Source: a virus
Virus record (IMG/VR): IMGVR_UViG_3300030044_000177
Coordinates: 1-28,135 of that record
Direction: 5' to 3' (one strand)
Length of the DNA: 28,135 nucleotides
Shown here: positions 2,884-26,852 of the stretch, piece after piece
Layout of the letters: each line of letters starts with the position of its first letter
How positions within the stretch are numbered: position 1 is the first letter of the stretch
Made by a program: the position numbers and the translations under genes
Notes under the pieces: generated by a model
Told to the model about the DNA's origin: nothing
The model's input: the letters and a program-made list of their open reading frames with translations, nothing else
Databases searched by the model: none

Positions 2884-5268
2884 TCATATTGCCTTTTGCG
2901 CAACTTCTAGGGCTTTTGCGACGGTATTGTCAGGCACGCCGAGTATAGCCTTAGTTTCGCGCTTTGTCGCGGCTTTTGCCTTTTCCGAGGCGGACATTAG
3001 GCGAGAAACTAGTTCTTCATGTGTTTTTTTGCGCTTGACGGAGCCGCCGCGAGCATATGCAGGCTGCAATTGGCCTTGTGGTTGCGGGTTGTTGTTTGGC
3101 GATGATGTCGCGGCAATGGCGGCACGGGGGACAAAGCCACGTAGCGCGCTCATCAAAGATGGTTTTGCTGCGATTGCGGCGGTAGTGTTGGCAATCTTTG
3201 CGGGATTTCCCTCCATGAGCATGTTTGCTATGGCCTCGTTTATGGCCTGCCGATGATTAGTCCCATGCTGTGCGGCGAACCCATACGCGCCGCCCGCAAC
3301 CGCGCCTTTCCACATATCCTGGCCTGCTTCATGCGCTCCCGCCGCGCCAACTAACGCGCCTCCCGCCGTTGGTCCGAGGGATTGAGCTACAGACCCGATA
3401 AATCCATGTCCAAACGGCTGAGGACCATGTCCTTGGTCCGTCAATCGCTGACCCGTCAGAGAATTGCCTAGCGATTGGCGCAATTGATCCATGCGGTCTT
3501 CGACGCGAAGAAAGCTTTCAACTTTATCGGCATAAGGACCAAGTGCGTTTCTGAGTTTTCCTGCCGTTGCAGGATCATTGAATTGTCTGAGAGCATTCGT
3601 CCGCGCGTTAGCGTTCGTCACCTTCTGCGCCATATCCGCCGCGACGCCTTGGCTGAATAACGCCTTTTGCGTAGAGTTCAGGCTGTTAAGCGCTGCATCG
3701 GATTGCGAAGATTGCAAGGCGTTTTTCTTGCCAAGATATTTTAGACCCGCTGTGAAGGCGTCATTTTCTCCGAAGAAACCCGCCGCTCCCGCGCGAGCCT
3801 GTGCATATTCAGGAACGGCATTGTCCAAGTGGTTAACCAATGCTGTGCGCAACGATCCAATCAACCTTGAGTCATTGGTCGGTTTTCCCAACCCCGTTAA
3901 AGATGAATCATATTGACTGTCCAAATTTCGTTTAACTATATCCCAGAATTGCAGATTTGGCGTAGTGCCGGGCGGAAGCGTAAGATTGCCGTTTGCATCC
4001 GTAACAAATGGATTTTTGACTATCGGGCCAGAAGCTCCTGTTTGCGCTCTTTGTAGTACGGCTTCCTCTTGGCTTACGCGATTTGCGTCTCCTATCGCCT
4101 TTTTGACGGACGGAGATTGAATTAGGTTTTCTAGATCGGGCGTCCAAACCGATTGCGCGTTAGGAGAACTAAAAGCCGTTTTGTAATTTGCAGCATTGGC
4201 GACCTTCGCTTTTGAGGACAGGTCATCCATTATTTCAGTTGGATTTAGATTGCTACCAAAGAGATTTTGCAGGAAAGCTTGAGACCTATCCCCTTGTTCG
4301 TTGAACCGAGATTCAACAACATTTCGTATTGTTTGCTGCGCCTCCGGTGACCCTACGGCGGCCTTGTCAGCCAATCGGCGAAGTTGTCCGCCGCCCAATG
4401 CGTCGGCAACGGTGACAGGCTGATTTGCGTCAATAGCGTTAGAAATATCGTTAGGAGACAATGCCGCGCTCGGATCGCGCGCGCTCTGAATGGCTTTTGC
4501 TGCCTCAGATTTTGGGCTAGTCAATCCAAGCTTGGAAAGCGCGGTTCCCGCCGCCTCGCTTACCGCTGGCGCGACCGCACCTAACCCCGCGCCCCACATC
4601 GCCCCGGATTTCGCGTTCTTTAGTCTATCGTCAAGTGTATCGCCGTTGCCGGCTCCATAGGCTGCGCCAAGCCCGGCCCCGACGACGCCCGAACCCAATG
4701 TAGCGGCCCCAAGACTGCCCAAACGAGGAGCCACGACACGAGCAGCGTTACCAACAGCTGCAACAGGTCCGTCAATAGGTAACGCCAATCCGCCCGCGAC
4801 GACTGGCGCGACCATGCTAGTAATAGGAAACGCGCTGCTAATTCTTGCATTATCAGCCTCAATGCGCTGTTTTTGTTGGCTAAAACGATCAGAAAAACTT
4901 GTGTTCGGATTTGTCTCCCCGATGTTATCAACAGCGGCCCATTTCGGCAAATATGTTTCGCCCGCCTGAATAGCCGCGCCTATGTCATGGGCGAAGGGAA
5001 CTGAATTAGCCACTCCATAAGTCAGCGCGTCGCCCCATCCGGGTGTTTTTGGCGTAGGCCCGGCAGTCGCGCTCTTGTCTCCCGTAACAGGAGGCTTTGG
5101 CCCCGGCGAAGGTGCATTGAACGCCTTGTTAAGTTCGTCAAAATCGCTTTCGTCGTCTTGTTTGGGCGCGGCGTCGCTTTGTGGCGCAGTCTTGCCTTGC
5201 GCCGGCTTGGCGGCGGGAGCGGCCTGAAAGGCGGCGTTGAGTTCGTCGAAATCTTCGCTATCCGCCAT
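2884..5268 (-). CDS. Large internal virion / DNA-ejection-type protein
   Basis: A 794-aa product. I place the start at ATG 5268 because GAGG lies five bases upstream. It overlaps the end of the 1373-aa gene by 11 nt. A TTG at 5283 would add five residues. The N-terminus has two copies of an acidic motif, DFDELNAAF and DFDELNKAF, about 35 residues apart. Next comes a hydrophobic Gly/Ala-rich region (about residues 140-250; VGAGLGAAYGAG, MWGAGLGAVAP), then a long helical Gln/Asn-rich body, a second Gly/Ala patch (ALVGAAGAHEAG) and a basic tail with YARGGSVKRKKTHEEL. Glycine-rich amphipathic stretches in a long helical virion protein are typical of podovirus ejection proteins that form a channel through the envelope. 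No enzymatic motif is seen. Family membership is inferred from architecture and position. Confidence 0.6.
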   Translation of the reverse strand: MADSEDFDELNAAFQAAPAAKPAQGKTAPQSDAAPKQDDESDFDELNKAFNAPSPGPKPPVTGDKSATAGPTPKTPGWGDALTYGVANSVPFAHDIGAAIQAGETYLPKWAAVDNIGETNPNTSFSDRFSQQKQRIEADNARISSAFPITSMVAPVVAGGLALPIDGPVAAVGNAARVVAPRLGSLGAATLGSGVVGAGLGAAYGAGNGDTLDDRLKNAKSGAMWGAGLGAVAPAVSEAAGTALSKLGLTSPKSEAAKAIQSARDPSAALSPNDISNAIDANQPVTVADALGGGQLRRLADKAAVGSPEAQQTIRNVVESRFNEQGDRSQAFLQNLFGSNLNPTEIMDDLSSKAKVANAANYKTAFSSPNAQSVWTPDLENLIQSPSVKKAIGDANRVSQEEAVLQRAQTGASGPIVKNPFVTDANGNLTLPPGTTPNLQFWDIVKRNLDSQYDSSLTGLGKPTNDSRLIGSLRTALVNHLDNAVPEYAQARAGAAGFFGENDAFTAGLKYLGKKNALQSSQSDAALNSLNSTQKALFSQGVAADMAQKVTNANARTNALRQFNDPATAGKLRNALGPYADKVESFLRVEDRMDQLRQSLGNSLTGQRLTDQGHGPQPFGHGFIGSVAQSLGPTAGGALVGAAGAHEAGQDMWKGAVAGGAYGFAAQHGTNHRQAINEAIANMLMEGNPAKIANTTAAIAAKPSLMSALRGFVPRAAIAATSSPNNNPQPQGQLQPAYARGGSVKRKKTHEELVSRLMSASEKAKAATKRETKAILGVPDNTVAKALEVAQKAI

Positions 5269-8200
5269 TGCCGCCTCGGACAAAATAACGCGCTAGATTA
5301 GGATCAACATTATTGGCTCTCAAAACTTTATCTATAACTTGCGGTGAATATTTACCCGATGTAAGTTTGCTAAAGGCCTGTCCTTTATTCAACATAAGAT
5401 CTTGCAGTTCTTTTGTTTCTAAATCGTATTTCTGGGGACCATTCTTATCTGAAAAATCATCCGCCGCTCCATACGATGTTCCCATTGGGCTGTCGGATTT
5501 CCATTGCAGGGCATGCTTGTATCGATCTTGAGCCCGCATTTGATCCGTCATCAGGCGAGCGGATATCTCCGATGACGCCTCTGGCGGTTGATCCAAACTC
5601 GCGTTAGCGCCCTTGAAGACGTTCAGCGCGCCAAGAGTGTGTTCGTCGGCTCCTTGCGCCCTAGCCGCTCCTTGCAAAGCGTTAATCTTGGCCTCAAGAG
5701 CCGCGCCCTTGTCGCCTTCGCCGAAATAGCCGTTACCCATCCCAAATTGGGAGGCGAGTTCATTAGCGTATTTGGTAAATCCGGCGCGCATTGAGAACGT
5801 CGGACCAGCGGCGTTCATGCCGGTTTGCTGATAAGCGTCCGCAAGCGTTGCCGCCATCGTTCGCGTGTAACCAGAGGTTTCCTGAGCTGCTTGGGAGGCT
5901 TTCTGAGAACTGTCTAAATAAGCGGCGGATTGAGCAATATCATGCGGAGCCTGGGGTCCAGACAAAACCTCGTTCTTAGCTCGATTGGCGCTGTCACTAT
6001 TGTAACCTACGCCTCTTAGGTCTATCCCACTTGCAGAAATAGGCGGCGTCACAGACGGGTTGACTGTAGTTGAATCCCCTTGTTTGTTCGCCGCATTAGG
6101 AACGCCGCCCATGAGCGGGACGCCTGTTGTCGCAATCCTCTTGTCAACAACCCCTAGATTGCCCTTCGGGTTCAGGATCATGCCATTATCGAGAACGCTT
6201 TCGCGAGCCGCCGCGACGCCTGTCCGTTGCGTCTCGGCCTGTTCGCGAGCGATATCCGCCTGCGTCTTGCCTGCATCCATATAGCCCTTCGCTCCAGCGC
6301 CAAGCCCCTGTAGAGCCGCGCCGAGAACGGACTGCCCGCGATAGCTTCCGACCGCGCCAAGGCCGCTCAGCACGCCCATTAGAGCGCGCTCACCCATGCC
6401 GCCGTTCGTGGCGGATTGACCGTCAGGCTGACCGTGGAAGAATTTGCCGAGACTGTCGAAAAGGCCGGGCTGTTGCGCGGGAGTAGCTTGCGGTTGACCG
6501 CCGCCACCCCCCATATTCGAGACCGGCGCGGGGTTTATCCCTTGCTGATATGCTTTTACCACAGCGTCGCCGCGCCACGGCTTGAGGCCGCCCGTCGCCA
6601 TTTGGTCGATAGCGAATTGATTTGCCAAATTCGCATGAGCCGGGTTTGTCGGATCAATGCCTTTCGCCATCGCCTCGTTACCGAGACCGTTACGCACATT
6701 GAGTTGAAACGCGCCGAACGAAAACGGCTTTCCGGTCTGCGGATCAATATCGACCGAACTTGCCCCATTGGGGTTTTTCGGCGAAATGGCGCGAAGTCCT
6801 TCTGTGTTGGCGACGCCAAGCGCAAATTCAGGTTTCACACCGCGATAGATTGAATAATCACGAATGAACGCGGCCTGCCCTGCCTGATCGGTTCCATAGG
6901 CTGATGGCTCGGGAGCCGTAGACGGGCGCGCGCCATCGTAGGTAGGAGCGGCCCATGCGCCCAATCCAGCTTGCGCAGCCGATGGCGCAACATTCGCCGT
7001 TGCCGCAGCGGGAGGAGCAAGTCCAGCCGCTGAAGACGCGGGACGCTTGAACGCATCGGGCGGAACGGGAATATCTTTCGGCCCCGGCGCTATCTTGTCC
7101 GGGTCAGGCGTTGGTTGTGCGTTTACATCATCGGGAGAAATCATCGGCGACAGGGGAGAAAAGCCAGCGTTAGCGCCCGAAATCCCGTCCGAAGTTTTGG
7201 GCGCCGCTTCCGAATGAGCCGAAGGAGGAGCAAGGCCACCCACTCGCTGACGCGCGATCATAGCCTCCGGGCTAAGCGCGTCATCAACGGGAGCGTCGCC
7301 GTGCGGATTGATATTGTCATCCCCAACACTATCGCCGTCCGCGTGATGCTCGCGAGGGACAAGGCCACCACTCTTGAGCGCGACCATCGCCAACGCGTCG
7401 CCGATAGAGCTTGCTGCATCCGCCGCATACGGAGCCGCATCGCTACCTAATTTCGCCAATGTCCCTATCGTTTGCAGATTGCTGTTGGCGGAATTGTTGC
7501 TATTCGCCCCGGCAGGCTGAGCGGGGTTAAGCGTGTATTTCGGTTGACCCGCCTGCGACGCCAGCGCGCTTGAAACAGGTCCATTCGCTGAGCTATTCGG
7601 CGCTTGCTCCATAACCTTTTCGCCGGCGGCTAGACCCTTCTCACGCTGCTGCAACGCAGCATCGCTCTGATAAGGATCATCGATATAACCACCGTCATCA
7701 CGCTTAAGCGCCAGTCCGCCATGAGAGTAAGTCGGAGCCATCGCCGCCCCAAGACCGGAAACGACGCTCTTGCCCGCATCATAAATTTGCGTGCCATCGT
7801 TATACAGCCCCTTCATCTGCTGATATTGATTGGCAAGTTGCCCAAGGCCCTGCATTTGCGGAGGCGTAGGCGAGTGCTGGAACGCAATACGGCGAGCCGC
7901 CGATTGCTGCGGAGCCGGAACGTAGGTTCCGCTACCAGGAGTTCCGTTTGACCCTAGACCATATTCGCCAGAGTTCGGATCAAACACCAGTCCGCCGCCG
8001 CCAGATTTCGAGGCGCGGTCATAATCAACCGTCTTCAATCCGCCGGCCAATCCGACCGCCTCGGGATGCTTTTTCTCGACCTCATCGGCCATAAATCCGA
8101 TATGCGTGACTTTTTCAGGATCGCCCTTGTATTTGAACGAGTAGATTTTCAGGCCGTTCTTGGCGCGGCCCATTTCGCGGATATCCGTCTTTGCGCGACG

Positions 8201-9379: not shown

Positions 9380-9871
9380 TTAAACCTCCCCTTCTTTCCA
9401 ACTACCAGTCTTGCCGCCAACGATCCAATAATGACCAGACGCAGGACCGAAAGAGCGTTCGTACAAACGCCGCTTGGCCTCAGTTCTTTGATTGCTCAAT
9501 ATTCCAATCACAAGAGGCACGCTCAACCTTTCCGCAGCGCTCTTTGCAAACTCGCAAAGCCTTGCCGCACGCCCTCCCTTGGCTTGGCGAAAATCAGGCG
9601 CAACAAAAATAGCCCTTTCGACCAAGGATAGATCATCCGTGTACCATAGGCTTTCGACCCTCAAAAGTATAGCCGCCTCAAGCGGTTTACCCTGTTCGCC
9701 GATTATGCCGACGATACCGTGATGAAAATTTAGAGACGACCAAATCTCGGAAAGCAGTTTTTCCGGGTTTGGTCGAGAAAGCCCATTTTCCTCGCATGCC
9801 GCCAAAGATAAATCCATCATTGGGATTACGTCCTCTGGCGTTCCGGTTCGGACTGTGATTTCGTTTTCCAT
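9380..9871 (-). CDS. GNAT-family N-acetyltransferase
   Basis: A 163-aa product from an ATG at 9871 that overlaps the previous TAA by one base (TAATG). It opens with ITVRTGTPEDVIPMMDL, the usual first strand and helix of GNAT enzymes. A central FVAPDFRQAKGGRAARLCEF stretch resembles motif A, where the acetyl-CoA pyrophosphate loop (R/Q-x-x-G-x-G/A) lies. The C-terminal LYERSFGPASGHYWIVGG resembles the terminal GNAT strands. The length is normal for a single GNAT domain. The acceptor is unknown; phage GNAT proteins may modify virion or host proteins. The gene lies between a small virion protein and the 1373-aa internal protein, so it is co-expressed with late genes. Confidence in the fold is good; the substrate is open. 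Confidence 0.75.
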   Translation of the reverse strand: MENEITVRTGTPEDVIPMMDLSLAACEENGLSRPNPEKLLSEIWSSLNFHHGIVGIIGEQGKPLEAAILLRVESLWYTDDLSLVERAIFVAPDFRQAKGGRAARLCEFAKSAAERLSVPLVIGILSNQRTEAKRRLYERSFGPASGHYWIVGGKTGSWKEGEV

Positions 9872-16889: not shown

Positions 16890-17579
16890 TTACCTATAGT
16901 ACCCCGATAGTTGAGGAGAAACATAAAAATCACTATTTTCCGTGTTCGTCAATGCCGCCGCCGTCCAAGCCGCCGTAGCCGCCGCCGAAAGTCCCATTGC
17001 GCGCTCTGGAGCCCAGCTAATCGCAAGCTCAGCCGCCAGACCCTTAGCAAAAGCATTTAACCAAAGATAAGGAATGTCCGCCACCTGACCATTTGTGAAC
17101 GCCGCATCCTGAATTTGCAACACGGCATAATAAGTGAACGAAACCTCGTTACCGTCAGGAACGGGATAAAAGTTGATAGTCGGCGTCAACGTGCGATTGT
17201 GCCAATAAACCGTTGGCGGCGCTTGCTGCGTCGGATTTGGATAGCTAACATATTCCGTCCGAGAGACAGGGAAAAGATAGCGGTTCGTGTTCGCCGCGCC
17301 GCCAGGGACGGTCATGTAGAGATCGAGGATTTCAACCAAGTTCGGACTGACCGAATATGTTGCGGTTCCCTGAACGAAATTGACTGTAGTTGGCGCGACC
17401 TTCCAGAGATTGACGCCTTTATTCGCCCAATCCCCTAAGACAAAGTTAGCCGCCATTCTGGCGCTTTCCATATGCTCTTGCAACAACGCCGTAGGGCGAA
17501 TGCCGCACATATGGAAAGCTTGGATGGTAAGTTGAGCAATCGACGGATTGAACGAGTAAGTCCCGCTCGACGACGCCAT
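16890..17579 (-). CDS. Head-completion / gp4-like head-tail adaptor
   Basis: A 229-aa product with its ATG at 17579 overlapping the previous TAA (TAATG). The opening GTYSFNPSIAQLTIQAFHMC then GIRPTALLQEHMESAR, the central NKGVNLWKV and VQGTATYSV, and the SRTEYVSYPNPTQQAPPTVYW block are highly characteristic of P22 gp4-like adaptor proteins in short-tailed phages. These form a ring under the portal and seal the DNA-filled head. INFYPVPDG, DIPYLWLNAFAKGLAAELAI and the Ala-rich helix near the C-terminus also fit. The length is normal. It lies after the head-protein genes, as expected for a connector. No anomalies are visible. This is among the more secure structural assignments here. Confidence 0.75.
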   Translation of the reverse strand: MASSSGTYSFNPSIAQLTIQAFHMCGIRPTALLQEHMESARMAANFVLGDWANKGVNLWKVAPTTVNFVQGTATYSVSPNLVEILDLYMTVPGGAANTNRYLFPVSRTEYVSYPNPTQQAPPTVYWHNRTLTPTINFYPVPDGNEVSFTYYAVLQIQDAAFTNGQVADIPYLWLNAFAKGLAAELAISWAPERAMGLSAAATAAWTAAALTNTENSDFYVSPQLSGYYR

Positions 17580-20153: not shown

Positions 20154-20837
20154 TTAGGCGGCCCCTTCAATCGGTATGACATTAGAAGCATCCTTGTGTT
20201 TGTCGAGGTAATCGGCTGCGGCGCGAAGGAGCGCGGGATCGTCGTTAAATGACCCAAGGCCGACGTTGCATTTGTGGCAAAGCAGACCACGAACTTTCCC
20301 GGTCGCGTGGTCGTGGTCAACGTGAAGGGCGACGGCGGAACCATCAACCTTGTGTCTGCGGCTTTCTTCTTTGCCGCAAACCTTACAAACTCTACCTTGA
20401 GAGACAAGCATTTGCTCATGCTCGCCAAGCGTCATTCCGTAAACGTTTTTCAGCGAATACGCCCGGCCATCCTCGGATGACCGCGTAGAATGCTTTTTTC
20501 CTTCAAGACGGACAGACTTAAACTCGCCTTCCTTCAGGTTTTTAATCTTGATATCCAACGTATCGCCGTTCTCGAATAGAACCCTAGTCTTAGGCCATTC
20601 TCCGTGCACCAGAAGCCAAGCTATGCGCGCCGCCGGGATCGGTACACCATGCAACCAAACCCAACGATAAAACGTATGTTGACCGCGACCGTCTGTAGCT
20701 TTTCGGACAGTCGTAGCATCCGACCCAACCTTACCGCGTTGCCCCGAACGTTCTCGGCGAAGCATGACGCCGGTTTCAGGATCATACGAAATGTACTGCG
20801 CAACTTCCTCTCTGGTCAGGTTTACAGACTTCGTCAT
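20154..20837 (-). CDS. Endonuclease VII-type nuclease with degenerate HNH-like N-terminal domain
   Basis: A 227-aa product from ATG 20837, with AAGG just upstream. In-frame GTG/ATG codons at 20903-20898 would place the start within the promoter-like region, so I prefer 20837. Residues about 15-105 resemble the HNH_3/homing-endonuclease layout (YDPETGVMLRRE ... RIAWLLVHGEWP ... ENGDTLDIKIKNL), but the usual His residues are absent (AAR and VLFENGD instead of AHR and DHINGD). Residues 150-212 are a clear endonuclease VII domain: C151/C154, HVDHDHATG (H172-H177), C187/C190 and GLGSFNDDPALL. Endonuclease VII of T4 resolves branched DNA, but standalone relatives often act as mobile or homing nucleases. 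The gene interrupts the capsid cluster and has its own promoter-like signals, suggesting a recent intruder. DNA target unknown. Confidence 0.85.
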   Translation of the reverse strand: MTKSVNLTREEVAQYISYDPETGVMLRRERSGQRGKVGSDATTVRKATDGRGQHTFYRWVWLHGVPIPAARIAWLLVHGEWPKTRVLFENGDTLDIKIKNLKEGEFKSVRLEGKKHSTRSSEDGRAYSLKNVYGMTLGEHEQMLVSQGRVCKVCGKEESRRHKVDGSAVALHVDHDHATGKVRGLLCHKCNVGLGSFNDDPALLRAAADYLDKHKDASNVIPIEGAA

Positions 20838-20843
20838 AGCGCC

Positions 20844-20864
20844 TTCTCTCTCTTCCAGAGAGAA
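20844..20864 (-). promoter_or_regulatory. RBS-overlapping hairpin in the nuclease leader
   Basis: On the minus strand TTCTCTCT and AGAGAGAA form a perfect 8-bp stem with a GGAAG loop, ending seven bases before the ATG at 20837. The last stem bases overlap the AAGG Shine-Dalgarno (20845-20842). The structure is seen directly. A role in limiting ribosome access, as with RBS-sequestering hairpins of T4 homing endonucleases, is inference. Confidence 0.55.
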
Positions 20865-20867
20865 CGC

Positions 20868-20896
20868 ACAATAAACGGAGTTGTCGGTTTCGTCAA
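20868..20896 (-). promoter_or_regulatory. Candidate sigma70-type promoter for the nuclease gene
   Basis: Minus-strand TTGACG (20896-20891) and TATTGT (20873-20868) are separated by exactly 17 bases. They lie in the 87-nt gap between the capsid gene and the nuclease start. The -35 matches consensus at five of six positions and the -10 at four of six. A transcript would start near 20861 and carry the hairpin. The alternative is a chance match. Confidence 0.5.
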
Positions 20897-20924
20897 GCAT
20901 CACGCAAGACCTGACAAAGAAAAA

Positions 20925-21839
20925 TTAAGAGGTAGGAAAACTGCCAAACAGGCTTCGCCAATTATAATAGCCGAAGCTATATCTCTCGTATGCTTTCACC
21001 AAAAGATTATCGGTGACGAAGTCTACCTGCATATCCGTCTCGAACTTGACGCGCTCCATGTAGGCGAGGCCGTCGATGTTTGTGAGGACGAACCATGCGT
21101 AGGATGACGTGAGGAAGTCCATGACCATGTAGCCTTCGGGGAGGCCGCCTGCGGTCGTATGGATGGCGTTCGCGTCGTGGTCGGCGGTGCCGGGGCGCAG
21201 TTCCGTCTTGGTCAGTCGGATGGCGACGGGTTCGAGTTGCGGCGGGACGATCAGCTTGCGACCGCGCGCGAAGACTTTGAGGCCGGCCTGGTCTCGGAAG
21301 TTGACGCGGACGGCGACCATTGCGTTGAGCATGGTTGCTTCGTTGAGGTCCGCCTGCGTCGAGAACGTGTTCGCGAGAGAACCGTAGTCGGACGGATGAG
21401 CCGTGGAGCAGAGCGCGACGCCATCGCCGCCGACCTGGGTATTATAGGTCTGCGCCGTGTTGAAGGTGTTTGCGGCGTAAATTTCCTTCGTCTGCTGGAA
21501 GCTTTCGATAAGCCCTAGATTGGAAGGATGAAACTGCGTTTTGTAAACGTTGTCGTCGATGGCCTTGCGCGTGATTGCATAGCCAAGGCCGATCTCGACG
21601 TGCTCTTGGTTGTAGATGTAACGTTCGCCAGCGCCGTTATCGAAGGCGGTTTGGCCGCCTTCGGTTTTGAGCTGGGCAAGGCCGAGGAATCGCATTTCAG
21701 CCGTTCGCTCGAACGCGAGCTTGCTATCGTGCTTCGCGTAAACCTTGTCGTACTGAGACGGGATCATCTCGTACTTTCCTTCGACGCCCCTCAGACCGGG
21801 GAGAAGAAGGTCTTTGATTGAACTGAGGTTAACAGCCAT
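20925..21839 (-). CDS. Major capsid protein (HK97-fold, Mu gpT-like)
   Basis: A 304-aa product from ATG 21839, 16 nt after the previous stop, with an AAGG-type SD and a GGGAG further upstream. It carries hallmarks of the Mu gpT-like or related HK97-fold capsid family: an N-terminal helix region (LSSIKDLLLPGLRGVEG), IPSQYDKVY, then HVEIGLGYAITRKAIDDNVY (about residues 80-99), and LCSTAHPSDYGSLAN. Next come an ARGRKLIVPPQLEPVA strand and the C-terminal VMDFLTSSYAWFVLTNIDG block. The length is normal for an unprocessed capsid subunit. A scaffold gene and a GroES-like gene lie upstream in the same operon, supporting the call. The protein would form the icosahedral head shell. No truncation or frameshift is seen. 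Confidence 0.85.
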   Translation of the reverse strand: MAVNLSSIKDLLLPGLRGVEGKYEMIPSQYDKVYAKHDSKLAFERTAEMRFLGLAQLKTEGGQTAFDNGAGERYIYNQEHVEIGLGYAITRKAIDDNVYKTQFHPSNLGLIESFQQTKEIYAANTFNTAQTYNTQVGGDGVALCSTAHPSDYGSLANTFSTQADLNEATMLNAMVAVRVNFRDQAGLKVFARGRKLIVPPQLEPVAIRLTKTELRPGTADHDANAIHTTAGGLPEGYMVMDFLTSSYAWFVLTNIDGLAYMERVKFETDMQVDFVTDNLLVKAYERYSFGYYNWRSLFGSFPTS

Positions 21840-22966: not shown

Positions 22967-23479
22967 CTAGTCCGGCACCTTCATCGCGAGCGAGAAATCG
23001 CTCTTGATCTTCGCCATCGGCGTTCCCTTGTTGTGGCCCTCAAAAGCCCCAACGGGAGCGCCCTCAAGCTGTTCTTTCTTGGATCGCATCTGCGTCCGAG
23101 CCGCCTGCAAATCCTGCTTTTTGGCGAAATCGGTAACTTCCGCAGGACGCTCCATAAGCTGCAGGCCCTTACGGACGATGTTTTTGTCCGTCGAGCCAAC
23201 AGGCATCATTTCGGGATGACGCGAAGTCGGCACCGGATCCCAACCAAAGCGCGAAAGCTCAATCTGGCGAGCCGCGTTCGTCATACCCATGACGGTTAGC
23301 TCTTTCCATTCGTAGGACCATCCGTCAGGCACGATGGATTGATCGAAGTCGAAATCGCCGGCCTGTTCTCCGAAGTTTCCGACGTGTTCTAGGATTTGCC
23401 GCGTTCGTTCTGCCGCGTCTCGGCGGGGATCGGTTGATCGCATGTCGGGGCGCTGAGCGGGTTTGACTTTCTCGTCCAT
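22967..23479 (-). CDS. Conserved phage late-module protein of unknown function
   Basis: A 170-aa product. I place the start at ATG 23479, two bases after the previous TGA, because GGAGGGG precedes it at good spacing; longer in-frame options lie inside the upstream gene. The sequence (KVKPAQRPDMRSTDPRRDAA ... DGWSYEWKELTVMG ... GWDPVPTSRHPEMMPVG ... IVRKGLQLMERPAEVTDFAK) belongs to a widespread phage family near capsid genes for which I know no defined function. It is charged and mostly helical, with Arg-rich N- and Lys-rich C-terminal parts. There is no signal peptide, membrane segment or enzyme motif. Position before the capsid cluster suggests an assembly role, which is inference. Confidence 0.6.
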   Translation of the reverse strand: MDEKVKPAQRPDMRSTDPRRDAAERTRQILEHVGNFGEQAGDFDFDQSIVPDGWSYEWKELTVMGMTNAARQIELSRFGWDPVPTSRHPEMMPVGSTDKNIVRKGLQLMERPAEVTDFAKKQDLQAARTQMRSKKEQLEGAPVGAFEGHNKGTPMAKIKSDFSLAMKVPD

Positions 23480-23481
23480 AA

Positions 23482-23733
23482 TCAACCCCTCCAAGTAACG
23501 GCTTTGACAGCCCACATTTGCGCAGTCTGAGCTTCGGTGATGGCGATTGAGCAAAGACGCACCATTTCGGGATTGTCTCCCCGCTTGATGTAACCTTTGC
23601 GGAAATCGTCCATGTGGTCGATTATGTCGGCATAGAGGCGCTTGAGTTTGTCAACATCGCCATTGCTCGACGGATTGAAACTTAGACCAACGGCGCGCTC
23701 GCCGTAGGTTTGCGGTCTATCTACGCCTTCCAT
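23482..23733 (-). CDS. Acb2/Tad1-hairpin-like small protein (candidate cyclic-nucleotide sponge)
   Basis: An 83-aa product with ATG 23733 overlapping the previous TAA (TAATG). The core is RAVGLSFNPSSNGDVDKLK, then a helix (LYADIIDHMDDFRK), then RLCSIAITEAQTAQMWAVKA and VTWRG. The FNPS-x(4)-V-x-x-(I/L)-K start, a helical hairpin, and a closing E-x(3)-A-x-MWAVKA helix match my recall of small phage proteins in the Acb2/Tad1 hairpin family (PF24729-type). Acb2 proteins form small oligomers that bind cyclic di- and trinucleotides and block CBASS defence. If correct, this protein soaks up host immune signals. I made this call from motifs alone, without a profile search. The alternative is an unrelated small helical phage protein. 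Confidence 0.55.
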   Translation of the reverse strand: MEGVDRPQTYGERAVGLSFNPSSNGDVDKLKRLYADIIDHMDDFRKGYIKRGDNPEMVRLCSIAITEAQTAQMWAVKAVTWRG

Positions 23734-23951
23734 TATTTTGCCTCATCAAAGTTGAAATCCAGCCAAATGTTTTTGGCTTTCATAATGACCCACGCCTCTT
23801 GAGCAACGGTAGGATGTGTCTGCGTTTCTGCGTATGTATCCAAATACAATCGCACAAACTCCCTAAGAGCGTCCGACGCTGCATTAGGATTTATTTTCCA
23901 ACCTGCTTTTATCATCGCGTTTTCAGCCAACTCGCCGTAATCGGTTTCCAT
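23733..23951 (-). CDS. Small helical phage protein, unknown function
   Basis: A 72-aa product. ATG 23951 overlaps the scaffold TGA by one base (TGATG) and is preferred over the TTG at 23954. The sequence (GELAENAMIKAGWKINPNA; LREFVRLYLDTYAETQTH; VAQEAWVIMKAKNIWLDF) is mostly helical and acidic, with no motif I recognise. It is translationally coupled to both neighbours, between the scaffold and the Acb2-like gene. Tight coupling to an anti-defence candidate is suggestive but not evidence of function. Confidence 0.5.
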   Translation of the reverse strand: METDYGELAENAMIKAGWKINPNAASDALREFVRLYLDTYAETQTHPTVAQEAWVIMKAKNIWLDFNFDEAK

Positions 23952-24796
23952 CAATTATACCTCGTATCCTTGGAAATCTTCTGCTTCTGTTCGTAGTATT
24001 CTTGATCCGTCATCTTATTAAGCCGGGCCATCTCGCGCTCATCGGCAGTCAACCGAATAACTCGCGGACTTGACCCATTCGACGACGGCGATGATCGGCT
24101 TACCGGAGCCGCAGCCGGCGAAGATCTCCTCGAAACAGCTTTTGCCGCCAGTTCCGTGCCGTCTTCGTTATCTTCAGCCTGTTCGACCTTGCCGTAGCCT
24201 AGTCTGCGCTCCACCGCCTTGAAATAATCCTCGGATTCTGCCGTCAATCCGTCGTCAAGCGCGTCCTCGTGCGCGCGAATCATCTTTCGAAACATTTTTG
24301 GATCGGTTGCACACTCAGGATGCGCCCGAACCCATGCAGCGGATCGCGGTTGAAGCCTCGCGCACAAGTCTTCGACCGGATCAATGGCGGGAGGCGGGGT
24401 TTTTGGCCGTTCGGCCATTGCCTGTTTGCCGTTTTCAAGCTGCAAAAGCTTGGCGGCGTTCGTAGACATTTCCAACTGAATGTCTGCGGCCTTGTTATAG
24501 TCTCCCGCCGCCATTGCGGCGGCGTAAGCCGACTTCAATTGCAGAGAATTGCCCTTGACCGTCTCGATAGCGTTCGTGACGAGTTGCAAATTCGTATCGG
24601 CGACTTCGTTTTTGGCGGTATGAGCCTGTGCGGCGGCCTCGCGAGCCGTTCTTTCGGCTGTTGCGCGAGCTACCTTCTCCGCTTCAAGCTGCTTTTTGAG
24701 TTCGTCGATACCTTCTTCGGTCGATACCGCGCGTTTGGGCGCTTCTTCGACGATGATTTCAGGCTCTTTTGCGTCAACTTCTTTGATTTCGGCCAT
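23951..24796 (-). CDS. Capsid scaffolding protein
   Basis: A 281-aa product from ATG 24796 (MAEIKEVDAKEPE). A GTG at 24808 overlapping the previous TGA would add four residues and is also possible. Residues about 30-75 form a strong coiled coil (ELKKQLEAEKVARATAERTA). A helical middle follows (AAAMAAGDYNKAADIQLEMS), then RSAAWVRAHPECATDPKMF, a Ser/Pro-rich linker, and a basic C-terminus (VIRLTADEREMARLNKMTD). This acidic-helical body with a small basic C-terminal segment is the usual scaffold layout, in which the C-terminus binds the capsid protein. It lies upstream of the major capsid gene in the same operon. No protease motif is seen, so head maturation must use another protein. Confidence 0.65.
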   Translation of the reverse strand: MAEIKEVDAKEPEIIVEEAPKRAVSTEEGIDELKKQLEAEKVARATAERTAREAAAQAHTAKNEVADTNLQLVTNAIETVKGNSLQLKSAYAAAMAAGDYNKAADIQLEMSTNAAKLLQLENGKQAMAERPKTPPPAIDPVEDLCARLQPRSAAWVRAHPECATDPKMFRKMIRAHEDALDDGLTAESEDYFKAVERRLGYGKVEQAEDNEDGTELAAKAVSRRSSPAAAPVSRSSPSSNGSSPRVIRLTADEREMARLNKMTDQEYYEQKQKISKDTRYN

Positions 24797-24804
24797 GATC
24801 TTGC

Positions 24805-25209
24805 TCACCAAACCATATCGGGATGCTGAATGCGAGCGCGAACAACGGTATCATCAAGCAATCGGCACAAAACCTTGTTAACCGACAAACTCCAACCGTC
24901 AGAAGCGCGATAAACTACCCAATCGCCGAGATTAAACTTGATCCCCTTGAACCAAACGCCACTTGCGTCGTGAAATGCGCTTTCGCCCATTTTGACGATG
25001 ACGCCGACTTTCGACTGGAAGCGATCTTCTTCCAAGTGCTGATCTGGCAGGAAAATCCCGCCTGTGGTTTTCTTAGGACCGTTTGCGCCGCGCTGATAGA
25101 CGGCGACGAGAATTTGATTGTTGAAAATGTCAACATCGTCCAAATTGCCGAGAGATTTGATAAGCGCCTCTCTTGGATCGATTTCATGCTGCATAACCAT
25201 CGCGGGCAT
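24805..25209 (-). CDS. GroES-like (Cpn10) phage co-chaperonin
   Basis: A 134-aa product from ATG 25209, with GAGAGG seven bases upstream. Residues about 27-120 show the Cpn10 pattern: VDIFNNQILVAVYQRG, the lid/mobile-loop-like TTGGIFLPDQ (48-57), SKVGVIVKMGESAF, KFNLGDWVVYRASDGWS and a closing strand with VLCRLLDDTVV. It resembles a phage family recognised as GroES-like. T4 gp31 and RB49 CocO are known phage co-chaperonins that fold the capsid protein with host GroEL. The gene sits just upstream of scaffold and capsid genes, which suits that role. The C-terminal extension (RARIQHPDMVW) is longer than in GroES. The fold call is moderately strong; interaction with GroEL is inferred. Confidence 0.65.
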   Translation of the reverse strand: MPAMVMQHEIDPREALIKSLGNLDDVDIFNNQILVAVYQRGANGPKKTTGGIFLPDQHLEEDRFQSKVGVIVKMGESAFHDASGVWFKGIKFNLGDWVVYRASDGWSLSVNKVLCRLLDDTVVRARIQHPDMVW

Positions 25210-25220
25210 AATCTAGCCTC

Positions 25221-25424
25221 TCAGTTTTCGTTAACCTTCTTCACAGCATCGTCGCAAAGCTCAAGCGCAAGCCTAAGCCCTTCAATCTTCCCAACCAAAA
25301 AACTGTAAGTTGAATGATCGGGAACAGCCCCGCGATTAGCGAGGGCGCTTTTCAAGTCATCAATGCTTTGCTCAATCATTGATGCGTGTTCTTTGATGAC
25401 GGCGGCGGAATAGGATAGGGACAT
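25221..25424 (-). CDS. Small helical phage protein, unknown function
   Basis: A 67-aa product starting at ATG 25424, where TAATG couples it to the previous gene; an ATG at 25436 would add four residues. The sequence is two or three helices (IKEHASMIEQSIDDLKSALA; YSFLVGKIEGLRLALELCDD) with a single short loop. No domain is recognised. It lies 11 nt before the GroES-like gene. Confidence 0.5.
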   Translation of the reverse strand: MSLSYSAAVIKEHASMIEQSIDDLKSALANRGAVPDHSTYSFLVGKIEGLRLALELCDDAVKKVNEN

Positions 25425-25660
25425 TAGTTGCGACATCCTATCGATGATCTTTTAGACGCCAATTTCAAGCTGGTCGGTCCCTTTGGGCCAAATTCCCGCC
25501 GCGTTCCACGCGAACCTTCGCGCAGATAACTTTCGAAAAACACAGCTAAACACCATAAATCACTAGAAGCGTTTTCGTGATTTACAGCCCCAGATTTGAA
25601 GGCTTCGGCAGCCAATGAAAGTGCATCTTTCCTGACCTGATAATCTCCATCGCGCTTCAT
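25424..25660 (-). CDS. Small phage protein, unknown function
   Basis: A 78-aa product from ATG 25660, two bases after the previous stop. The N-terminal half is helical and acidic-basic mixed (RKDALSLAAEAFKSGAV; DLWCLAVFFESYLREG). The C-terminal half is basic and probably flexible (RGTRREFGPKGPTSLKLASK). No known motif is seen. It is part of the same tightly packed operon. Confidence 0.45.
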   Translation of the reverse strand: MKRDGDYQVRKDALSLAAEAFKSGAVNHENASSDLWCLAVFFESYLREGSRGTRREFGPKGPTSLKLASKRSSIGCRN

Positions 25661-25662
25661 GG

Positions 25663-26577
25663 TTACCGCCCCGCTCCCGGAGGCATTTGCGGCGGCATAG
25701 GAGGAGGCCCGCCAGCGCCCGCAGGACCGCCGCCCATGCCGGGAGGTTGCATAGCGCCCATAGCGCCCGGCGGGATAGGAGGACGGCCCGGAGGCGGCAT
25801 GGGCGGGCCCATTGGCGGACCCATAGGCGGCTTGTCCTCTTTCGGTCCGCCGATAATGATATTGATGTTCGTCTTGCCCTTGCCGGCACGCCCTCCTTCC
25901 GCGCGAGCTTTGCGATCCTGTTCGTCGATACGATATTCCGCTTTCGATTCGCCGTTATGTCGCTGAGCCTTGCCGCCATCGGCGCGAGCTTTGCGATCCG
26001 ATGGTGGCAAGGATTCGCTAGGCGTTTGTTCTGGTCTAGGGCTAATCTGCCATAATTTATTTCTGTCGCCCTCTCTCATCGCGAAACGATGAGCCTCTTC
26101 ATATGAAGGGAAGCTCCGAGTAGTATCCCCTGGTCGCGTAGCGTGGAAATTGGCCGCCCCGCCATCCGCGCGCGCCTTTCGGTCGCCAGTGATGCGAACT
26201 CCCGTAACCTCATTGGCGATACCTCCCTTCTTCAACCCGCCAGCCCCGGCCATCAAGCCCGCGTGCGTAGGCTGGAACCCCGATCCATACAGTCCGCCAG
26301 TCGGGACATTCGGAGCAAGCTGTTGCGCCGCCGTAGGTCCGCCCGTGCCGCGAGACTTCCGCCCCGCATGATGATGCGCCTTGTGGCCTTCGACCTTTCC
26401 GCCCTTGGCGAACGCGCGAGGCTTAGGCTGGCATGGCCCGGTTTTTTCCTCCGTATGAAGTTCGCCAGGAACCTCATAACCGGAGGCGTCAACCTTGCCG
26501 CCTTTGGTTGAGTTGAGGACGTGTTCGACGCGCTCTTTGCGATGCGAACTGTTGTACTTATCGGCGTGTTCAGACAT
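25663..26577 (-). CDS. RADGG-repeat, Pro/Gly-rich virion-module protein
   Basis: A 304-aa product whose ATG lies five bases after the Tad2-like gene's stop. The first two thirds carry repeated basic motifs: STKGGKVDASG, FAKGGKVEGH, AHHHAGRKSRGTGG, and three copies of DRKARADGG or DRKARAEGG spaced about 40-90 residues apart. A KTNINIIIGG strand follows, then a C-terminal region of Met/Gly/Pro repeats (GPPMGPPMPPPGRPPIPPG). The C-terminal layout is common in proteobacterial phage late genes, but the function is unknown. The protein is probably mostly disordered apart from the short beta segment. It shares the AHHHAGRK motif with the 139-aa protein downstream. A minor head or assembly protein is likely by position. 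No catalytic motif is visible. Confidence 0.55.
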   Translation of the reverse strand: MSEHADKYNSSHRKERVEHVLNSTKGGKVDASGYEVPGELHTEEKTGPCQPKPRAFAKGGKVEGHKAHHHAGRKSRGTGGPTAAQQLAPNVPTGGLYGSGFQPTHAGLMAGAGGLKKGGIANEVTGVRITGDRKARADGGAANFHATRPGDTTRSFPSYEEAHRFAMREGDRNKLWQISPRPEQTPSESLPPSDRKARADGGKAQRHNGESKAEYRIDEQDRKARAEGGRAGKGKTNINIIIGGPKEDKPPMGPPMGPPMPPPGRPPIPPGAMGAMQPPGMGGGPAGAGGPPPMPPQMPPGAGR

Positions 26578-26582
26578 GGCTT

Positions 26583-26852
26583 TTATCCCTTAGAAACAGA
26601 ACCCCAATCGTCCGACAACACGTCGGTTTGAGACGCCAGCCACGGGACGAACTTTTTGTCAGCCGTGTACATAATGATAAATGGCAAAGTGCTTTCTGGA
26701 ACAATCGCCGCAACATTATGGTCTGCCGACCATCCGGCGCGGACATAAGCTAGCCACATTTCCTTTCCGTTCCAACCAGAACGGGAAACCCGTTCGCCGC
26801 GCTTTAAAGCGGCAAGCGCCCATCCAAAATCTTGCGTATCTCCGTTGTGCAT
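26583..26852 (-). CDS. tad2: Tad2-like (DUF2829) anti-Thoeris protein
   Basis: An 89-aa product, the normal length for this family, from ATG 26852, two bases after the upstream TAG. The N-terminal DFGWALAALKRGERVSRSGW and NGKEMWLAYV, then LPFIIMYTADKKFVPWLASQ with TDVLSDDW at the C-terminus, match the DUF2829/Tad2 family almost end to end. Tad2 is a small phage protein that binds the signal molecule gcADPR made by Thoeris TIR proteins and so blocks this bacterial defence; some members also bind cyclic dinucleotides. No residue of the visible core motifs appears lost. It lies between two RADGG-type virion-module genes rather than in an early gene set. Family recognition is strong; its ligand here is inferred. 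Confidence 0.85.
   Translation of the reverse strand: MHNGDTQDFGWALAALKRGERVSRSGWNGKEMWLAYVRAGWSADHNVAAIVPESTLPFIIMYTADKKFVPWLASQTDVLSDDWGSVSKG

Follow-up and report, generated by a model that had tools for sequence, protein, structure and literature searches.

Why should two genes for candidate sponges of immune nucleotide signals lie among the head-assembly genes of a phage? The question arises from a 28,135-nucleotide stretch of an IMG/VR virus record (IMGVR_UViG_3300030044_000177), hereafter the window, in which a sequence-only reading had noted a Tad2/DUF2829 match and an Acb2/Tad1-hairpin-like protein. It took such genes to be usually early and offered protection in the late phases, read-through from an early promoter or carriage in the virion as reasons for their place. 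We conclude, with a probability of about 0.8 for the explanation as a whole, that the phage holds two accessory anti-defence genes inside its head operon, one for a Tad2-type and one for an Acb2-type sponge, and that they were acquired separately. Both proteins are new members of already known families, and their location is recurrent.

Both ORFs are present on the minus strand, as are the large ORFs of the window (Table 1). The genes follow in the order tad2, p304, p78, p71, GroES-like, scaffold, p73, acb2, p170, p318 and major capsid protein (MCP), and the neighbouring contig L006 supplies the upstream TerL (phrog_38), portal (phrog_1216) and a 601-aa Ala/Gly-rich protein. Thus the two genes share one strand of a TerL-portal-GroES-scaffold-MCP operon and are separated by 2,849 bp (2.85 kb), in keeping with the spacing of about 3 kb amid head-assembly genes that had been noted.

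Table 1. Head-operon features of the window, in their order along the minus strand
Feature	Position	Strand	Evidence
Tad2-type sponge, 89 aa	26583..26852	-	PF11195 9e-24; PDB sequence matches; AF2 fold
p304, low-complexity, directly downstream of tad2	25663..26577	-	partly conserved in the group
GroES-like co-chaperonin	24805..25209	-	PF00166 4.7e-5; phrog_3188 1.7e-8
Probable scaffold protein, kept across the phage group	23951..24796	-	role inferred; GroES/MCP-flanked position in relatives
p73, orphan small protein inserted along with acb2	23733..23951	-	no relatives outside the window's lineage
Acb2-type sponge, 83 aa	23482..23733	-	PF24729 6.3e-9; hhalign; AF2 model
p170, conserved, downstream of acb2	22967..23479	-	conservation in relatives
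Major capsid protein	20925..21839	-	phrog_371 (major head protein) 1.1e-10; annotated capsid protein in relatives

At scaffold/p73 (TGATG) and at p73/acb2 (TAATG) the stop codon of one gene overlaps the start codon of the next, and the ribosome-binding site of p170 (GGAGGGG) sits within the 3′ end of acb2, so translation is probably coupled. Promoter- or terminator-like sites between the operon genes did not exceed the shuffled expectation on that strand, although the phages may use other promoter types. The suggested read-through from an early promoter finds no support here. The p73 protein was considered as a partner and set aside, its relatives being confined to the same lineage.

The Tad2 assignment is borne out by a PF11195 score of 84.2 bits against a cut-off of 25. 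In PDB sequence searches the protein matches ModTad2 (9eib, 3.5e-13) and SPO1 Tad2 (8sme, 9.9e-13), and the best 24 Foldseek matches of its AF2 model (pLDDT 80) are all of the Tad2 family with E of 3e-8 to 2e-6. The core motifs RSGWNGKxMW and PWLASQTDVLSDDW are present, their columns being invariant among the aligned relatives. With SPO1 Tad2 and the Myroides prophage ModTad2 (both PF11195), the protein has in common its size, fold and motifs of the GWNGK and PW..SQTDVL..DW types, whereas it is about 40% identical to them and set in a head operon. As judged from the family, its expected ligands are the TIR-made ADP-ribose signals (gcADPR or His-ADPR) and its expected target is Thoeris.

The 83-aa protein likewise gave a significant profile match, scoring 36.3 bits with the PF24729 model (cut-off 27), by which T4 Acb2 scores 70 and PaMx41 Acb2 59. 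Its family profile, built from an alignment of 24 diverse sequences, aligns by hhalign with a profile of the T4, PaMx41 and FCV-1 (a Flavobacterium phage relative) Acb2 proteins at P 97.3 and E 1.8e-11. Among PDB chains the family profile ranks T4 Vs.4 and PaP2 Acb2 best, yet with E of 0.6–1.2, and the PDB sequence search with the single protein returned nothing relevant.

The AF2 model (pLDDT 92.5) has one short and two long helices (H10-15, H25-51 and H55-80), and this predicted fold appears to agree with the published description of Acb2 (PMC10419184). Foldseek comparison of the model with the solved Acb2 8h2x was not significant (E 3.1, TM 0.30). With its 83 aa, all helical and free of strands in the model, the protein is Acb2-like and not Tad1. 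Membership of Tad1 was rejected, as the model has no beta domain N-terminal to the hairpin.

The window protein and the PF24729 proteins PaMx41 and PaP2 Acb2 and T4 Vs.4 have in common an aromatic and a lysine aligned before the hairpin and a T-x-x-x-x-x-M motif in the second helix, and the predicted short helix and two long helices appear to be shared as well. The lysine, K31, aligns with T4 K23, itself aligned to PaMx41 K26, a residue that contacts the ligand. The aromatic, F19, aligns with T4 Y8, and Y8A in T4 Acb2 disrupts the binding of cyclic dinucleotides (PMC12657218). Both F19 and K31 are invariant across the 24 diverse members.

Against these likenesses, the window protein is only about 20% identical to the known ones, has an FNP loop and bears Thr80 at the position of T4 F82, with an aromatic one residue further. 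The Phe is also missing at the equivalent place in PaP2 Acb2. Cyclic di- and trinucleotides are the ligands, and CBASS the target, to be expected of such a protein. For both proteins, belonging to these families makes sponge function a well-founded inference.

The backbone of portal, p304, p71, GroES, scaffold, p170, p318 and MCP recurs in numerous IMG/VR contigs whose MCPs are 84–87% identical, and is partly kept in the more distant Pelagibacter phage HTVC023P, Roseobacter phage CRP-901 and Alcaligenes phage QDWS535 with MCPs 38–39% identical. In profile searches across this capsid group, 46 records in all, PF11195 and above-cut-off PF24729 occur in the window's own lineage only, neither exceeding the cut-off in the 45 other records. 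Closely related to the window's phage, G077 (the contig of L143) has a sub-threshold PF24729 match at 17195-17314 (16.9 bits, E 1.6e-4).

In 64 relatives, scaffold and p170 lie an estimated −12 to 156 nt apart, against about 450–470 nt in the window. The extra sequence is p73 plus acb2, a two-gene insertion missing from those 64. On the best reading, the conserved operon gained the two sponges separately, each at a point of its own. The finding adds an uncultivated phage lineage with both an Acb2-type and a Tad2-type gene.

Acb2-type proteins 81–96% identical to that of the window occur in phages whose remaining genes mostly do not match it, and the nucleotide similarity to those phages is restricted to the acb2-type gene. 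Versus the sampled relatives for which dS was estimable, dS is about 1.5 or more and dN/dS 0.03–0.08, so the exchange with them was not recent and the selection is strongly purifying. A well-conserved Acb2 subfamily thus travels among unrelated phages, as well as between the early and the late module. More distant relatives are found on genome contigs labelled Bacteroidota, Pseudomonadota and Saccharibacteria. Avibacterium paragallinarum NCTC11296 has five acb2-type copies (L213-L217) in one genome, possibly in several related prophages.

In 42 of 74 contigs the acb2-type gene belongs to a replication operon, with a Sak4-like gene and a DNA polymerase nearby. In two such replication-operon lineages (L034 and L041/L043) it is less than 1 kb from a Tad2 gene. 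This pairing is uncommon, with 3 of the 81 other Acb2-bearing records searched, in two lineages, and many of the records are fragments. Early or replication placements of the sponge families are seen also in T4, EcP1, PaMx41, RcXuper and ct76p945, and the T4 and PaMx41 acb2 copies are away from head genes, unlike that of the window.

Late placements are also repeated. The closest Acb2-type relative by identity, on a 4.5 kb fragment (L016), has the gene between TerL and portal; elsewhere it comes close after TerL (L065), after a head-tail adaptor (L045) or next to GroES or scaffold (L057, L068 and L078), and between TerL and GroES/portal in phage DSL-LC05. In Pmp11 and Aaphi23 it has the lysis genes on one side and terminase on the other. 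A tad2-type gene directly follows the MCP in Klebsiella phage NKA196, stands between a head morphogenesis gene and the MCP in Pseudomonas phage phiAH14a, and follows the Q antiterminator with the lysis genes in Pm86 and Kapi1. On another phage contig with an Acb2-type gene (L067), a GroEL-like chaperonin is encoded about 0.8 kb downstream, at 4038-5627.

Hence the premise that such genes are usually early holds for T4, PaMx41 and EcP1, as it does for the largest clade among the close Acb2 relatives, but fails as a general rule for either family. NKA196 and phiAH14a for Tad2, and DSL-LC05 and L016 for the Acb2 type, all have a small sponge-family gene amid portal, capsid or terminase genes as the window does, but a second sponge of the other family was not found in those records. 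These contexts were not randomly sampled, so we note the recurrence and claim no enrichment. We found no paper stating the late-operon pattern; the sponge literature was only partly covered, so the pattern may be already reported.

What the position means is a separate matter. At about even odds, both proteins are functional sponges and their position is meaningless, an ordinary mosaic insertion wherever the operon tolerates small cargo genes. It fits this that the acb2-type gene takes three distinct positions around GroES and the scaffold gene in related backbones (L057/L068, L078 and the window), that the gene is elsewhere in replication operons and that Tad2 genes occur in early or replication modules too. 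Against it, within the non-random sample, stands the recurrence of late-module placement, seen for both families in several unrelated phages.

A simpler candidate reason than those first listed, and absent from that list, is that capsid and prohead proteins are themselves the triggers. The major capsid protein enters a complex with Thoeris sensors (PMC12578639), and a prohead protease interacts with a CBASS sensor (PMC12409349, citing Richmond-Buccola 2024). Capsid mutations aid the CBASS escape of a phage without acb2 (PMC10419184). Sponges act by amount and not by turnover (PMC12043709).

The tad2 and acb2 genes are probably transcribed together with the scaffold and capsid genes, and both sponges probably coexpressed with the capsid proteins. 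They would then accumulate as capsid and prohead proteins, the published triggers of these two defences, arise in the cell, the Tad2-type sponge being expected to block Thoeris and the Acb2-type CBASS. We tentatively propose, while holding it rather doubtful, that phages repeatedly put sponges in head operons because of these triggers, here for two defences at once. If so, the sponge level would rise in step with the trigger. If the capsid-side placement is selected, small late-operon genes would be worth searching for anti-defence proteins, and how sponge and trigger are timed relative to each other would be open to direct testing.

The Tad2-type protein might instead act mainly against another target, such as that of the anti-CRISPR AcrIIA7 or cyclic dinucleotides. 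AcrIIA7-named proteins are among its PDB matches, and some Tad2 proteins bind cyclic dinucleotides via an insertion between strands (PMC12043709). By E-value, however, ModTad2 and SPO1 Tad2 are the nearest solved relatives, and the variable loop is shorter than that of SPO1 Tad2; we regard this as unlikely.

Even less probable is that the 83-aa protein acts in head assembly, as a factor based on a helical hairpin. Scaffold and capsid genes flank it and its sequence conservation is very strong, but it is missing from close relatives that keep the same head operon intact and present, at 81–96% identity, in the replication operons of unrelated phages. A structural role is set aside on both these grounds, and an Acb2-type sponge remains our reading. 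Carriage of both proteins in the virion for action at entry is scarcely credible, as its one hint is the head-gene neighbourhood, neither a fusion to a virion protein nor any other packaging feature was seen, and relatives from replication operons have the same architecture.

Three further features were noted on the minus strand of the window. Directly downstream of the capsid gene, a single ORF at 20154-20903 fuses HNH_3 and endonuclease VII domains. A weak GNAT acetyltransferase match (phrog_1249, E 1.1e-3) lies at 9380-9871 inside the virion-gene region. Downstream in the same strand run of virion genes, 265-1959 encodes a 564-aa FAD-dependent oxidoreductase (PF12831, E 4.7e-64), an unusual phage cargo.
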